Shown here in pieces: positions 1 through 49,856 of a DNA stretch of 64,000 bases (position 1 is its first letter; every line of letters begins with the position of its first letter). Source of the DNA: Novimethylophilus kurashikiensis (GTDB taxonomy: Bacteria; Pseudomonadota; Gammaproteobacteria; Burkholderiales; Methylophilaceae); NCBI RefSeq assembly GCF_003112435.1, contig NZ_BDOQ01000003.1, positions 434,001 to 498,000 on the forward strand, given 5' to 3'. A program made the position numbers and the translations under genes. Under the pieces are notes generated by a model. That model did no database searches. It saw only the letters and a list, made by a program, of their open reading frames with translations, and was not told the origin of the DNA.

Positions 1-1172
1 CGCTTGGCGACGATGCCCTCCAGGCCGTGCATGCAGGCATGCTCGAATACATCGTGGGCGTTGCCGACGATATGATCGCTGTAGAGAATCGGCCCATCCT
101 GCGGCATGCCCTCCATCAGCTTTTTTAACAGCCGCTTGCGCTCGGCGAGCGGCACGGCTGCAAGCTCATAGCCGTCGAGATAGACCAGGTCGAACACGTA
201 ATAAGCCAGTTGCGCCGACTTGCCCAGGCGCATCTTGTTTTGCAATGCCTGAAAACTCACCTTACCCTCGGCATCCAGCGCGACCACTTCCCCATCGATC
301 CAGGCCTGCTTGACCGGGAACGATTTGAGCACATCGGCTAGGCTTGGCCATTTGCCGGTCCAATCGTTGCCGGCGCGGGTGTAGATCTGGACCTCGCCCT
401 GGTCAATCCTGGTCAAGGCGCGATACCCGTCGAACTTCACCTCAGACAGCCATTGCTCGCCTTCGGGGGCTTGTTCGGCCAAGGTGGCCAATTGGGGTTT
501 GATGGGGTCCGGCATGGGTGTGGCCTCTGCACCGTTAACGGCGCTTGGGTCCACCTCCGATTCTGCAACAGGTTTGGCATCGGCAATCACTCGCCGCTTG
601 GCTTTGGATTTAGGCTTTTCCACCATCGGCACCGGATGCTCCGACACGCTTTCGGGCCGCAGCTCGGTGATATGCGCCGCTTCGCCGTTCCGGGCCTCCT
701 CGTCGTGCTCCTTGATCAGCAGCCAGTTTTCCTTGTCCTTCTCCTGGCCGTGTATCCGCACCAGCGTCCAGCCGCCATGCAGTTTGTGTCCGTCCAGATG
801 AAATTTGAGCCGTCCCTGCTTGTATCCCTTGACCGGATCGCCCTCCGGCTCCCACACGCCGCGATCCCATAGCTTGACGTGTCCCGCGCCGTATTGATGT
901 TCGGGGATCACGCCTTCAAAGGTTCCGTAATCCAGCGGATGATCTTCCACGTGTACGGCCAGCCGTTTGTCTGCCGGATCGAGGCTCGGGCCTTTGGGCA
1001 CCGCCCAGCTTTTAAGCGTGCCTTCCAGTTCCAGCCGAAAGTCGTAGTGCAGCCGGGTGGCGTGGTGTTCCTGGATGAAATAATGTAACTCGCGCCCCGG
1101 CCTAACCACCTTGCCGTGCGGCTCCGGCGTGATCTTGAAATCGCGTTTCTGCCAATATTTTTCCAATCCCAT
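1..1172 (-). CDS. ligD: ATP-dependent DNA ligase LigD, C-terminus cut by window edge
   Basis: LigD seals double-strand breaks together with Ku in bacterial non-homologous end joining. The visible 390 codons read an N-terminal 3'-phosphoesterase domain (about residues 10-150; seen motifs HYDFRLE, SWAVPKGP, EDHPLDYGTFEG) and then the start of the ligase domain. The nucleotidyl-lysine motif EVKFDGYR puts the catalytic Lys near residue 246, and LEGIVAKR lies at the window edge. A Pro/Lys-rich linker joins the two. The order PE-ligase is one of the known LigD arrangements; any polymerase domain would lie outside the window. I chose the ATG at 1172 because GGAAAGGA sits about 6 bases upstream; an in-frame ATG at 1178 has no such spacing. 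The start follows the Ku stop by 21 bases, so the two form an operon. Confidence 0.93.
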   Translation of the reverse strand, partial: MGLEKYWQKRDFKITPEPHGKVVRPGRELHYFIQEHHATRLHYDFRLELEGTLKSWAVPKGPSLDPADKRLAVHVEDHPLDYGTFEGVIPEHQYGAGHVKLWDRGVWEPEGDPVKGYKQGRLKFHLDGHKLHGGWTLVRIHGQEKDKENWLLIKEHDEEARNGEAAHITELRPESVSEHPVPMVEKPKSKAKRRVIADAKPVAESEVDPSAVNGAEATPMPDPIKPQLATLAEQAPEGEQWLSEVKFDGYRALTRIDQGEVQIYTRAGNDWTGKWPSLADVLKSFPVKQAWIDGEVVALDAEGKVSFQALQNKMRLGKSAQLAYYVFDLVYLDGYELAAVPLAERKRLLKKLMEGMPQDGPILYSDHIVGNAHDVFEHACMHGLEGIVAK

Positions 1173-43732: not shown

Positions 43733-43756
43733 ATATTTCGAATATTATTGAAATAT
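43733..43756. promoter_or_regulatory. Putative ArsR operator overlapping the arsR start codon
   Basis: Inverted repeat ATATTTC (43733-43739) and GAAATAT (43750-43756) with a 10-base A/T-rich spacer. The right half includes the first two bases of the arsR start codon. Position and form suit an autoregulatory ArsR site. Confidence 0.5.
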
Positions 43757-44096
43757 GGAAATAAATATCGCCGTCAAAGCGCTTGCCGCACTCGCACAGG
43801 AATCGCGCCTGGCGGTGTATCGCCTGCTGGTTGAAGCCGGGCCTGAAGGTATCCCGGCGGGCAAGATCGGCGAGGCGCTGGGCATCGCGCCGTCCTCGCT
43901 GTCTTTTCATCTCAAGGAACTGGCCCATGCCGGACTGGTGACGTCACGCCAGGAAAGCCGCTTTGTCATCTACTCGGCCAATTTTGCGCAGATGAACGCC
44001 CTGTTGTCTTTTATGACCGAAAACTGTTGCGGTGGAGCGCCTTGCGGCCCGGATTGCTCGACCGCCTGCCCACATGTCGAAGGAGACCATTCATGA
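43755..44096 (+). CDS. arsR: ArsR/SmtB-family arsenic-responsive repressor
   Basis: A 113-residue winged-helix regulator: the helix-turn-helix GKIGEALGIAPSSLSFHLKELAHAGLV is typical. It lacks the ELCVCDL arsenite motif in helix 3; instead the C-terminus has five Cys (91, 92, 97, 101, 105: CCGGAPC, CSTAC), a placing seen in other ArsR types that bind As(III) near the C-terminus. No ribosome binding site precedes the ATG, and an inverted repeat overlaps it, so the message may be nearly leaderless. Its TGA overlaps the ATG of the next gene (ATGA), and the operon continues with arsI, arsC and acr3. Confidence 0.9.
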   Translation: MEINIAVKALAALAQESRLAVYRLLVEAGPEGIPAGKIGEALGIAPSSLSFHLKELAHAGLVTSRQESRFVIYSANFAQMNALLSFMTENCCGGAPCGPDCSTACPHVEGDHS

Positions 44097-44551
44097 AACG
44101 CATGCACGTGCATATTTCTGTCGACGACCTGCAAGCCAGCATCCGCTTTTATTCCACCATGTTCGGTGCCGACCCCACGGTGGTCAAGCCCGATTACGCG
44201 AAATGGATGCTGGACGATCCGCGCGTCAACTTCGCCATTTCTCAGCGCGGTGCAGCGGTGGGACTGAATCATCTGGGCATCCAAGTGGAGTGCGGCGAGG
44301 AATTGGCCGAGATGAACACGCGCCTCCAACAGCTGGAAACCCAGGTCAAGGAAGAAATGGGCACGGCCTGCTGCTACGCTAAGTCCGACAAATATTGGGT
44401 GACCGACCCTTCCGGCATCGCCTGGGAGGCGTATCACACGCTGGACAACGTCCCCATGTTCGGCGGCGATGAACAGCACGATTCCAACTGCTGCGTGCCC
44501 GTTGTGATGATGCCGATGTCGAAGAAAAAGGCAGCTTCCGGGTGCTGCTGA
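44093..44551 (+). CDS. arsI: ArsI-type C-As lyase / CadI-like dioxygenase
   Basis: A 152-residue vicinal-oxygen-chelate protein. Likely Fe(II) ligands are His5 or His7 (MKRMHVHISV), His60 (GLNHLGIQVE) and Glu112 (GIAWEAY); the vicinal cysteines Cys93-Cys94 in GTACCYAKSDKYWV correspond to the pair that binds trivalent methylarsenicals in ArsI. Such enzymes break the carbon-arsenic bond of MAs(III) to release arsenite, which ACR3 then exports. More Cys pairs lie near the C-terminus (133-134, 151-152). CadI-type cadmium-induced proteins have similar sequence, so activity is probable, not proved. Start overlaps arsR by 4 bases; AAGGAGACC precedes it. Confidence 0.85.
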   Translation: MKRMHVHISVDDLQASIRFYSTMFGADPTVVKPDYAKWMLDDPRVNFAISQRGAAVGLNHLGIQVECGEELAEMNTRLQQLETQVKEEMGTACCYAKSDKYWVTDPSGIAWEAYHTLDNVPMFGGDEQHDSNCCVPVVMMPMSKKKAASGCC

Positions 44552-44598
44552 CAGTGGGCCAATGTTCGCATCCCTCTCGCAAAAAATAAGGAACTTCC

Positions 44599-45102
44599 GT
44601 GAGCAACAAGGTTTTCAACATTCTCATTTTATGTACCGGCAATTCCGCCCGCAGCATCATGGCGGAAGCCTTGTTCAACACCTTGGGCAACGGCTGCTTC
44701 AAGGCCTATAGCGCGGGCAGCCACCCCACCGGCAAGGTCAACCCGTTTGCCGTCGACCAGTTGAAGACCATCGGTTATGCAACCGAGAATTTGCGCAGCA
44801 AGAGCTGGGAAGAATTTGCCCAGCCGGACGCGCCGCAGATGGACTTTGTGATTACCGTATGCGACAACGCCGCGGGGGAGGTTTGCCCGATTTGGCCAGG
44901 GGCGCCGCTTTCTGCCCATTGGGGTTTCGAGGACCCGGCGGCGGTAAAAGGCAGCGATGAGGAAAAGCGTGCCGCTTTCCGCACCGTCTTCGATCAAATC
45001 CGCAAACGCGTCAGCCGCTTCGTCGACCTGCCGCTGGATAATCTCGACCAGGGCGCCGTCAAGCGCGAACTGGACAAGATCGGCGAGCCTCTTCCGGAGT
45101 AA
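44599..45102 (+). CDS. arsC: Arsenate reductase, low-molecular-weight phosphatase type
   Basis: A 167-residue ArsC of the LMW protein phosphatase fold, which reduces As(V) to As(III). The P-loop CTGNSARS starts at Cys12; the second redox region CDNAAGEVCP supplies the further cysteines, as in thioredoxin-coupled enzymes. It lies in the ars operon, 47 bases after arsI and 3 bases before acr3. The product arsenite is the substrate of the next gene's protein. Confidence 0.95.
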   Translation: MSNKVFNILILCTGNSARSIMAEALFNTLGNGCFKAYSAGSHPTGKVNPFAVDQLKTIGYATENLRSKSWEEFAQPDAPQMDFVITVCDNAAGEVCPIWPGAPLSAHWGFEDPAAVKGSDEEKRAAFRTVFDQIRKRVSRFVDLPLDNLDQGAVKRELDKIGEPLPE

Positions 45103-45105
45103 GCC

Positions 45106-46131
45106 ATGAGTGTATTCGAGCGCTATCTTTCGCTGTGGGTGGGGCTTTGCATCGTGGCCGGGATCGTGCTCGGCCAATGGCTGCCGGGGTTGTTCCAGGC
45201 TGTCGGCCGAATCGAGTTCGCCCAGGTCAACCTTCCGGTGGGGCTGCTGATCTGGGTGATGATCATCCCCATGCTGGTCAAGGTGGATTTCGGCGCACTG
45301 CATCAGGTCAAGACGCATTGGAAAGGCATTAGCGTGACACTCTTCGTCAATTGGGCGGTCAAGCCGTTTTCGATGGCGCTGCTGGGCTGGCTGTTCATTC
45401 GCGGGGTGTTCTCGCCCTACCTGCCTGCCGGGCAGCTGGATAGCTATGTGGCCGGCTTGATCCTGCTCGCCGCCGCGCCTTGCACGGCCATGGTTTTCGT
45501 ATGGAGCCGGCTCACCAACGGGGAACCGTTGTTCACGCTGTCGCAGGTTGCGCTCAACGACACCATCATGATCTTCGCCTTCGCGCCCATCGTCGGGCTG
45601 CTGTTGGGGATTTCGTCGATCACGGTGCCATGGGCCACGCTTATGACCTCGGTGGGGCTGTATATCGTGATTCCGGTTGTGCTCGCGCAGTTGTGGCGCA
45701 AGCGGCTGTTGAAAGGCGGCCAGGCAGCCTTCGACGCCGCCATGACGCGGATCGGCCCCTGGTCCATCGGCGCGCTGCTGCTCACACTGGTCTTGCTGTT
45801 CGCCTTCCAGGGCGAGGCCATCCTGCGGCAGCCGTTGGTGATTGCCATGCTGGCCGTACCCATTTTGATCCAGGTGCTGTTCAATGCTTCGCTGGCCTAT
45901 TGGCTTAACCGCAGGCTCGGCGAGCAGCACAACGTCGCCTGCCCCTCCGCCTTGATCGGCGCCAGCAATTTCTTCGAACTCGCGGTTGCAGCCGCCATTA
46001 GCCTGTTCGGCTTTCAGTCGGGTGCTGCCTTGGCAACGGTAGTGGGGGTATTGATCGAAGTGCCGGTGATGCTGCTGGTGGTTAGCGTGGTCAATCGCAG
46101 CAAAGGGTGGTACGAGCGCGCTCCGGTATGA
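45106..46131 (+). CDS. acr3: ACR3-family arsenite efflux transporter
   Basis: A 341-residue membrane protein with ten predicted spans, the ACR3 type of As(OH)3 exporter. The conserved Cys in AAAPCTAMVFVWS, the TLSQVALNDTIMIF helix, and GASNFFELAVAAAIS are family blocks. It is the last gene of arsR-arsI-arsC-acr3, 3 bases after arsC. A DUF3820 gene follows after 7 bases and may be on the same transcript. Confidence 0.95.
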   Translation: MSVFERYLSLWVGLCIVAGIVLGQWLPGLFQAVGRIEFAQVNLPVGLLIWVMIIPMLVKVDFGALHQVKTHWKGISVTLFVNWAVKPFSMALLGWLFIRGVFSPYLPAGQLDSYVAGLILLAAAPCTAMVFVWSRLTNGEPLFTLSQVALNDTIMIFAFAPIVGLLLGISSITVPWATLMTSVGLYIVIPVVLAQLWRKRLLKGGQAAFDAAMTRIGPWSIGALLLTLVLLFAFQGEAILRQPLVIAMLAVPILIQVLFNASLAYWLNRRLGEQHNVACPSALIGASNFFELAVAAAISLFGFQSGAALATVVGVLIEVPVMLLVVSVVNRSKGWYERAPV

Positions 46132-47859: not shown

Positions 47860-48825
47860 TCAAGCCGCCATGCGCATCAACTCCGTGCCCGGCGTCCAGC
47901 TATAGGTGCTCGACACCATTTCCGAGGGTGAACCTTCGGCGTTGACGACCTCGCGGTATTCGATGGAACTGGCGCCTTCATCCGTCTCGGCGACGAACTC
48001 CGTGCTGTTCTTGCGCATGGAAGACTCGCGCTCCACAGTTTCGCGCAGGAATTCGCGGTGGCTTTCGAACTGGATGAAATCGGGCAACTCGCCGCTGCCC
48101 AGGACTTCCGCCGGGTCGCGCCGCTCCATGTCCTTGAACAGCTGCAACACCATCTGGAAATGGCCCAGTTCGTAATCCAGGAAGCACTCCCAAAGGTTTT
48201 TCAGCCGCGGGTTGTCTTCCTGGTCGACGCAGGCGGCATAGGTCCACACCTCGTTGGCCTCGCACAGCAGCAGTTTTTCCAGCGGGCTTTCCTCAGGGTT
48301 GAGCATGGAGCCGTAATGCGTGATGTGCTGCGATTCCACCGAGGCGATCTCGGCATACAGCTGCCGCGCCATCGGGTCGGCGAACTGCGGGCCGATGTTC
48401 ATGTAGTAATCGTGCGTCTGGTATTCGCCGCCGGTTAGCGTCAGCGCATGCAGCTTGGTCGCCAGCGCGGCGTCCCGTTCATAGGGCCGCAGCAGGTCGT
48501 GTTCAGGCGCACGGTGATGGAAGAAGGTAGGACGGCCCGGCACGATATCGGTATAACCTTGGGTGATGTTGTTGGCGTCCTTGCCTTCCAGCCGGTCGAG
48601 CAGGGCGCTGTAGCGGTAAAGGTGGTCGAAATCTTCCAGCAGCGCATAGCGGTAGCCCTGGGCCATGTAGGGGTCGGGCTCCAGCTTGGCAACCGAGGCG
48701 GTGAGCTCGATGGCGACCTGCTCGTAGGCGATGGTGGTTTCCAGTTGCGAATGGTCGGGCCCGATGAGCCAGTTGATGGTGGTAGCCTGATGCTGCTCCA
48801 CGCGCATCAGCTGCGCCAGCGGCAC
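47860..48825 (-). CDS. Ferritin-like protein, third gene of triad
   Basis: A 321-residue protein with ferritin/rubrerythrin-like helices: EQVAIELTASVAKL, LLEDFDHLYRYSALLD, IASVESQHITHYGSML, CEANEVWTYAACVDQE, and FLDYELGHFQMVLQLF. The Glu and E-x-x-H spacing suits a diiron site (about residues 35, 64, 67, 163, 166, 211, 214). No ribosome binding site precedes the GTG at 48825 or the ATG at 48807. The frame is open up to the TGA (48841) that ends the 60-residue gene before it, and both are in the same frame. It may therefore be translated by re-initiation or by read-through. A terminator follows. Confidence 0.75.
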   Translation of the reverse strand: MPLAQLMRVEQHQATTINWLIGPDHSQLETTIAYEQVAIELTASVAKLEPDPYMAQGYRYALLEDFDHLYRYSALLDRLEGKDANNITQGYTDIVPGRPTFFHHRAPEHDLLRPYERDAALATKLHALTLTGGEYQTHDYYMNIGPQFADPMARQLYAEIASVESQHITHYGSMLNPEESPLEKLLLCEANEVWTYAACVDQEDNPRLKNLWECFLDYELGHFQMVLQLFKDMERRDPAEVLGSGELPDFIQFESHREFLRETVERESSMRKNSTEFVAETDEGASSIEYREVVNAEGSPSEMVSSTYSWTPGTELMRMAA

Positions 48826-48840
48826 GCGGGCTTCGCGGTT

Positions 48841-49023
48841 TCAGCGGATCGCCACTTGCTTGGTCCGCAGCGAATCCAGCTCGATGCCGTTCATGAGGAT
48901 GATCCGCACGCGGCTGAAAGCGTCGTCGTCCAGCTTGCTGATCGGCTTGCCGACCATGTCCTTCCAGGTGAAGCGCTGGCGATCCAGCGGCGTGCCTTGC
49001 TTGTCGAAAAGATTGATTGCCAT
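48841..49023 (-). CDS. 60-residue protein, middle gene of the ferritin-like triad
   Basis: A 60-residue protein (MAINLFDKQG, TWKDMVGKPISKLDDDAFSRV, ends KQVAIR) with an excellent ribosome binding site, AAGGAGG 7 bases before the ATG at 49023. It lies 14 bases after the first ferritin-like gene and ends in a TGA that is in frame with the next gene. No cysteine, one histidine-free surface, mixed charge: I do not recognise the family. Being between two ferritin-like genes, it may be a partner or a chaperone for them. Confidence 0.7.
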   Translation of the reverse strand: MAINLFDKQGTPLDRQRFTWKDMVGKPISKLDDDAFSRVRIILMNGIELDSLRTKQVAIR

Positions 49024-49037
49024 GGTAAATCCTCCTT

Positions 49038-49856
49038 TCAAACAGCCGGGGTGCCGGCACCGTTCGCCATGAGCGCCACGAGCCAACCCTTGACGATGGC
49101 GAGATGCTCTTCCTCTTCGGCGAGGGCCATGCGGAAGCGCCGCGACAGATCTTCTTCCTCGGCATCCTCCGCCATGCGGATTAGCATCTCCCAGCCGGCG
49201 TTGTCGGCCAGCTCGGCGGTGAGCATGGTGTTGAGGCATTGGGCGAACGTGGTGCGAGGATCGGTCAGCACCTGGACCATGCCCATGGAAGCGGTGGCTG
49301 TGACATCGGCACAGGGCGTTTGCGCGGTAGGATCGCCGCCCAGATTTTGCATCACCTCGCAAAGCATCTTGAAATGCGCCAGCTCTTCAGTATGGATCCG
49401 CACCAGCGTCTCGCCCGGCAGCTCGCTTTCCAAGGCGCTACGGGAGGATCGGCTGACTGAGGTTGCCGTATTTCCTGCCAGTACCTCATAAGCCGGCGGC
49501 AACATTTCGGCGATCTCCGACTCGATGGATTGGAATTTGACGATGAGCGCCTCGTAGAGCCGGGCGCCGGAACGTTCGAACGCGATACGCTCGCCGATCT
49601 TGTCGAAAAACAGCGTGGGGTGTGCCCCCTTGAGCTTGGCGAGGCCGCTCTTGACCACACCCTTGACCGAAAGCGGCGGCGGAATGGAGCCGACCGCATC
49701 TGACGCGTTGATATACACCAGACGTTCGTCCTCCAATGCGGCCGTATCGATGGAGGTCATGGGCGTGTATTCCTGCACCGCATCGGTCATGGCCTGCACG
49801 CCCATGGGCGACACCTTGGTTCCGGTGCGGTTGGTACCGGTAGAAGTTGCTTGCAT
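49038..49856 (-). CDS. Ferritin-like protein, first gene of triad
   Basis: A 272-residue protein with a disordered Thr-rich N-terminus (1-50) and a ferritin-like four-helix region: LYEALIVKFQSIESEIAEM, IHTEELAHFKMLCEVMQNL, LTAELADNAGWEMLIRMAEDAEEEDL, and FRMALAEEEEHLAIVKGWL. The E-x-x-H pairs (EELAHF, EEEHLA) fit a diiron centre. Such proteins may store iron or act as oxygen or peroxide sinks. AAGGAGGG lies 5 bases before the ATG. It opens a three-gene operon with a small protein and a second, unrelated-looking ferritin-like protein. Confidence 0.8.
   Translation of the reverse strand: MQATSTGTNRTGTKVSPMGVQAMTDAVQEYTPMTSIDTAALEDERLVYINASDAVGSIPPPLSVKGVVKSGLAKLKGAHPTLFFDKIGERIAFERSGARLYEALIVKFQSIESEIAEMLPPAYEVLAGNTATSVSRSSRSALESELPGETLVRIHTEELAHFKMLCEVMQNLGGDPTAQTPCADVTATASMGMVQVLTDPRTTFAQCLNTMLTAELADNAGWEMLIRMAEDAEEEDLSRRFRMALAEEEEHLAIVKGWLVALMANGAGTPAV

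Follow-up and report, generated by a model that had tools for sequence, protein, structure and literature searches.

Does the in-frame UGA in a ferritin-like region of Novimethylophilus kurashikiensis separate two genes, is it decoded as an amino acid, or does it interrupt a single gene? The locus lies in the window, the whole 64,000-nucleotide stretch of DNA that was analysed. A first-pass annotation made from the sequence had described two unlike ferritin-like genes flanking a gene for a 60-residue partner, whose UGA stop lies in the frame of the third gene. We conclude, with a probability of about 0.87, that an ordinary gene, here called gene B, has been interrupted by a UGA that arose either as a recent nonsense mutation or through a base error. 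The comparisons below indicate that gene B forms a conserved ferritin-like unit of two genes, in which it comes second, with the gene upstream of it, gene A.

Layout of the locus

The features discussed here are the following.

49038..49856, minus strand: gene A, predicted ferritin-like protein of 272 amino acids, intact; first gene of the pair, with a strong Shine-Dalgarno sequence
49026..49037, minus strand: Shine-Dalgarno region of gene B, AAAGGAGG, 5' of ATG 49023; anti-Shine-Dalgarno duplex -11.6 kcal/mol
47860..49023, minus strand: gene B, 387 codons, with a product predicted to be a divergent member of the ferritin-like proteins; the UGA interrupts it at codon 61; an open frame of about 385 amino acids in relatives
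48844..49023, minus strand: gene B codons 1-60, the 60-residue gene of the first-pass annotation; aligns with the conserved N-terminal part of relatives
48841..48843, minus strand: in-frame UGA, gene B codon 61; TGC (Cys) in the nearest relatives
48823..48825, minus strand: candidate GTG re-start, without a Shine-Dalgarno sequence
47860..48840, minus strand: gene B codons 62-387 and stop, the third gene of the first-pass annotation; full-length homology, purifying selection
47862-47860, minus strand: gene B stop codon, end of the open frame

The two parts of gene B do share one frame, as had been noticed, which is open from 49023 through the UGA at 48843-48841 to 47860. The GC content of the A-B pair (0.59-0.62) is not distinct from that of its surroundings (0.55-0.62). 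Positions 43755-46131 hold what, judging by the translations, may be an arsenic-resistance cluster (ArsR-like, glyoxalase-type ArsI/CadI-like, low-molecular-weight ArsC-like and ACR3-like).

Gene B is a single gene in its relatives

We searched for homologues with the whole 387-codon frame of gene B, reading the UGA as X. Single-frame matches were found in 5 other genomes among 399 sampled from the order, in 7 others among 369 sampled from the class, and in 14 of 399 genomes in the family of G224. A search of genome_contigs gave 577 matching stretches, the best 80 of which were analysed, and a search of 72,556 plasmid records with the downstream part alone gave matches in 7. Among the best 80 of the 577, homology spans the UGA over all 387 codons, with 82% identity in the top relative. 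Since this homology runs across the UGA, the relation between the two frames is far beyond chance. None of the 94 relatives aligned over codon 61 has a stop within the matched stretch (Acidovorax Leaf160 is counted twice among these rows, as L002 and L026); only the window has one. The same holds for 14 further genomes, 13 of them in the family of G224 and one in the window's own family.

The first 60 residues align with the conserved N-terminus of the fused relatives, for example over the block P-I-S-K-L-D-D-D at residues 27 to 34. Because the relatives encode one open frame, these residues are the conserved N-terminus of protein B and not a partner of it. A separate 60-residue gene is ruled out, as this part is fused to the downstream part in every relative that can be read across codon 61. 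The first-pass annotation was thus correct that the two reading frames belong together and that two unlike ferritin-like proteins are paired, but the 60-residue reading frame is not a gene of its own between two others, and the small partner disappears with it. Its question of whether the 60-residue protein is ever fused to the third protein or always separated by a stop has a simple answer in the readable relatives: it is always fused and never separated.

The product of MB84_RS26900 on the Pandoraea oxalativorans plasmid pPO70-1, a "hypothetical protein" of 389 amino acids, matches gene B over its full length. As in the window, it adjoins its partner A, here MB84_RS26895 ("ferritin-like domain-containing protein"). 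The plasmid gene differs from that of the window in having no stop, in the order B-A rather than A-B, and in having ATG at codon 61.

Two loci are less regular. L015 (G435; L015:1501-1959) keeps only codons 1-153 of gene B, followed by an unrelated tail and another gene. In the finished genome of Ramlibacter terrae (CP053418.1; L037:5041-7150), genes A and B both contain several frame shifts, of the kind that sequencing errors or decay would leave. Together, the truncation in L015 and the shifted frames in L037 indicate that gene loss occurs in other genomes.

Within the window's family, gene B occurs in 2 of 187 genomes, that is, in one other genome, whose copy is 39% identical. The closest copies (among the best 80 of 577) are in Ramlibacter and its relatives. 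This rarity in its own family, with the nearest copies in another group, suggests that gene B was acquired horizontally. G224 belongs to the same taxonomic order as the window's genome but to another family.

Translation signals around the stop

The absence of a ribosome binding site before the GTG at 48825, pointed out in the first-pass annotation, is borne out by the anti-Shine-Dalgarno duplex energies, which are -11.9 kcal/mol for gene A, -11.6 kcal/mol for ATG 49023 and -0.2 kcal/mol for GTG 48825. The only strong ribosome site of the gene B frame is at ATG 49023. If the base is real, the ribosome would normally halt after 60 residues and little or no full-length protein B would be made; if the base is an error, full protein B would be made normally.

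A functional split of the gene would require termination at the UGA, re-initiation at GTG 48825 or ATG 48807, and reassembly of the two chains. The distance is short, with five sense codons rather than the six originally counted between the UGA and the GTG, and the structure model could accommodate a nick, as it has a predicted helix from residue 35 to residue 61, a break at residue 62 and the next helix from 63 to 84. The stop thus parts this helix, the first long one predicted, from everything that follows it in the protein. We nevertheless consider a functional split very unlikely, because the possible starts at codons 67 to 75 have no Shine-Dalgarno sequence (duplex energies of -0.2 to -1.5 kcal/mol) and no relative has a split gene.

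Leaky read-through by a near-cognate tRNA, yielding enough full-length protein B, would account for a frame that stays open and conserved after the stop. The stop itself is not conserved, and the mutation may simply be young; a UGA followed by A, as here, is not the leakiest stop context. We regard this explanation as highly improbable.

Codon 61 and the condition of gene B

Codon 61 is variable in the family, encoding Phe in 35 of the 94 rows, Met in 28, Cys in 13, Ile in 10 and other residues in 8. The two closest relatives, L016 and L017 from Ramlibacter (82 and 81% identity, among the best 80 of 577), both have TGC at this position. In trees calculated without the codon 61 column, the window falls beside the TGC carriers, with weak support. 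Given TGC in the nearest relatives, a single C-to-A change gives TGA, and in our preferred reading the Cys codon would have become UGA through a recent nonsense mutation or an assembly base error.

The remainder of gene B is sound. Between the window and L016, dN/dS is 0.19 for codons 1-60 and 0.17 for codons 62-386; the L016-L017 pair gives 0.22 before codon 61 and 0.26 after it. Gene B of the window has 18 residues unseen in 24 close rows (0 to 35 in other members), 3 of them at otherwise invariant columns (0 to 11 in other members). By these sequence comparisons, gene B has been under purifying selection on both sides of the UGA and is otherwise undecayed, with codon 61 as its sole lesion. 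An old pseudogene is ruled out by this absence of decay, with dN/dS of about 0.2 on both sides. The lesion must therefore be young, an error, or tolerated, and because no second lesion has followed, a nonsense mutation, if real, must be young.

Within the preferred reading, a base error, with TGC as the true codon 61 and gene B intact, is a possibility that we hold tentatively and at less than even odds. The UGA is the sole lesion and lies at a TGC codon, and error-like shifted frames occur in genes A and B of L037 even though that genome is finished. Nothing positive points to an error in the window itself, which lies on a contig of 744,548 bases in an assembly that is 100% complete and 4.28% contaminated.

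Selenocysteine machinery and the search for a SECIS element

A UGA at the position of a cysteine is the classic signature of selenocysteine. In this genome the case has to be taken seriously: contig C21 carries selA (597 bits), selB (457 bits), selD (454 bits) and selC, the tRNA-Sec with anticodon UCA. A few kilobases from the sel genes is fdhA, whose in-frame UGA occupies the classic V-U-H-A-P-T-V site and is followed by a match to Rfam SECIS_3 (77.3 bits). The complete cluster of selA, selB, tRNA-Sec, selD and fdhA occupies about 12 kb (C21:75000-94999; L113). SelA, SelB, SelD and tRNA-Sec are thus all encoded, and the gene B UGA aligns with Cys in close homologues. With TGC restored at codon 61, a single base change could create a stop in gene B in 128 ways, 4 of which begin at a Cys codon; for TGA alone there are 10 ways, again with 4 from Cys codons. 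At 4 of 10, a chance TGA at a Cys codon is unremarkable once the stop is TGA; at 4 of 128, and with the full selenocysteine machinery present, the coincidence is uncomfortable for pure chance.

Selenocysteine would be inserted if SelB and tRNA-Sec read the UGA at 48843-48841, giving a ferritin-like selenoprotein of 387 residues. The otherwise intact frame, under purifying selection, is in keeping with this. Given the Cys/UGA pair and selABCD in the genome, we tested the selenocysteine reading by way of the SECIS element. The Rfam SECIS_3 scan had no match anywhere in the window, and the 201 bases around the UGA matched no Rfam SECIS family even at an E value of 10.

For comparison, fdhA was collected from the genomes of 50 of the 80 named loci. 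A TGA at the selenocysteine site was present in 14 rows representing 13 sequences, with that of the window's genome occurring twice (L113 and L123). All 14 rows share a SECIS core with a bulged U at +14, GU at +20/+21, and four of four pairs between +15..18 and +24..27. At the same position the window has neither the U nor the GU and forms three of the four pairs, and a full core of the fdhA type is absent after its UGA throughout the spacings tested, +5 to +40. This core was met by chance in three relatives of gene B with a sense codon at position 61.

A looser bacterial SECIS model, given in PMC13188914, has a loop of 3-9 bases, a stem of at least 4, G within the first two loop bases, a spacing of 16-37 and an energy of at most -7.5. 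The window passes this model, but so do 76 of the 94 relatives that have a sense codon. When G[G/U] is demanded in the loop, the window fails, all 14 fdhA rows pass and so do 31 of the 94 relatives.

Conservation gives no better support. PMC1088965 demands a TGA/Cys pair in more than 50% of homologues and treats single-sequence cases as possible sequencing errors. Gene B has Cys in 13 of 94 rows, codon 61 is variable and is no redox cysteine, and there is no second genome with UGA at this codon among the 94 rows and the 14 further genomes. As described in PMC1794560, beta-proteobacterial selenocysteine decoders have selABC and a neighbouring fdhA, whose product is their only selenoprotein; the anatomy of the window's genome, with its sel genes and nearby fdhA, corresponds to that description. 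Our literature search found no paper that mentions ferritin-like proteins together with bacterial selenoproteins and selenoproteomes.

Gene B thus resembles the FdhA selenoproteins with SECIS_3 (RF01989) in that a UGA takes the place of a Cys codon of relatives and selABCD are present in the genome, and differs from them in having no SECIS after the UGA and in the lack of conservation of the Cys within its family. On this evidence we judge decoding as selenocysteine to be very improbable. The form it could take is a young selenoprotein in which a variable, formerly Cys position became selenocysteine by way of a non-canonical or very weak SECIS, and this too we think most unlikely; the candidate element would be the hairpin from +19 to +43 with the loop AGCUGAU, an assignment we hold to be equally doubtful. 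The suggestion in the first-pass annotation that termination-reinitiation or read-through is an evolved feature of this locus finds no support, since the UGA is present in no relative, no start downstream of it has a Shine-Dalgarno sequence, and no SECIS was found. Our preferred explanation is still that gene B has suffered a nonsense mutation of recent date or contains a base error.

The paired ferritin-like proteins

Gene A adjoins gene B in 79 of the 80 genome_contigs loci (the best 80 of 577); in the one exception, L047, the contig ends 152 bases past B. Among the same 80, A is upstream of B, as in the window, in 20 loci, mostly from Ramlibacter, Acidovorax and their relatives, and downstream of B in 59. 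No third partner beyond A and B emerged from clustering of the open reading frames of the 80 loci, a weak result because spurious antisense frames were counted. On the Tistrella mobilis plasmid pTM1 (L008:5806-8216), a relative of B is followed by a DUF892 protein, with no A at the cut-off used.

The gene A product scores 24.2 bits against Pfam Ferritin (PF00210), just under the gathering cut-off of 24.5, and 50 of 56 members of its family match Pfam Ferritin at an E value of 0.01. Invariant among the 56 aligned members are E94, E158xxH161, E215 and E248xxH251, a candidate diiron set of the form E / ExxH / E / ExxH with one element on each helix of a predicted four-helix bundle (model pLDDT 87.8). 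The model is similar to bacterioferritin 4cvt (Z 17.5, rmsd 2.5, 150 aligned) and to the DUF892 stress proteins YciE (3ogh, Z 16.6) and YciF (2gs4, Z 16.5), and differs from bacterioferritin, ferritin and YciE/YciF in carrying about 70 additional residues at its N-terminus. The top PDB sequence-profile match is symerythrin (E 1.3e-6, profile positions 119-236), which covers only the C-terminal half of the gene A profile.

Protein B is more divergent and belongs to no Pfam family, its Ferritin (PF00210) score of 16.3 bits being below the 24.5 cut-off. The model is confident (pLDDT 89.5) and helical. Foldseek gave no match for it at an E value of 0.001, and a PDB sequence search gave one chance match only. 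The best match found by VIA-align, 3fse_A (Z 13.0, rmsd 3.0, 123 aligned), may reflect a common helical arrangement only, and the ferritin-like VIA-align matches, covering residues of about 30-306, have Z scores (up to 13.0) at an inconclusive level for helical bundles. Among 47 members, E101, E130/D131, H134, E200, E230, H233 and E285 are invariant and H288 nearly so. These include putative carboxylate/histidine ligand pairs on consecutive helices.

From the fold and the conserved ligands, we infer that the intact A-B pair may consist of diiron four-helix proteins that deal with iron or oxidants. Gene A would probably be the clearer ferroxidase- or peroxidase-like member of the pair.

Implications

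Now that the split-gene reading is gone, a false 60-residue "partner" can be kept out of annotation. The case also serves as a warning, as a UGA at a Cys position occurs here together with the full selenocysteine machinery, yet neither the search for a SECIS nor the conservation of the position speaks for selenocysteine. If gene B did encode a selenoprotein, it would be the first besides FdhA in such genomes and a snapshot of a Cys-to-Sec conversion. Once the UGA is put down to a probable young mutation or base error, the locus reduces to a ferritin-like unit of two genes, distributed patchily across the Pseudomonadota and kept together in both gene orders, with a member, B, that has no Pfam family.
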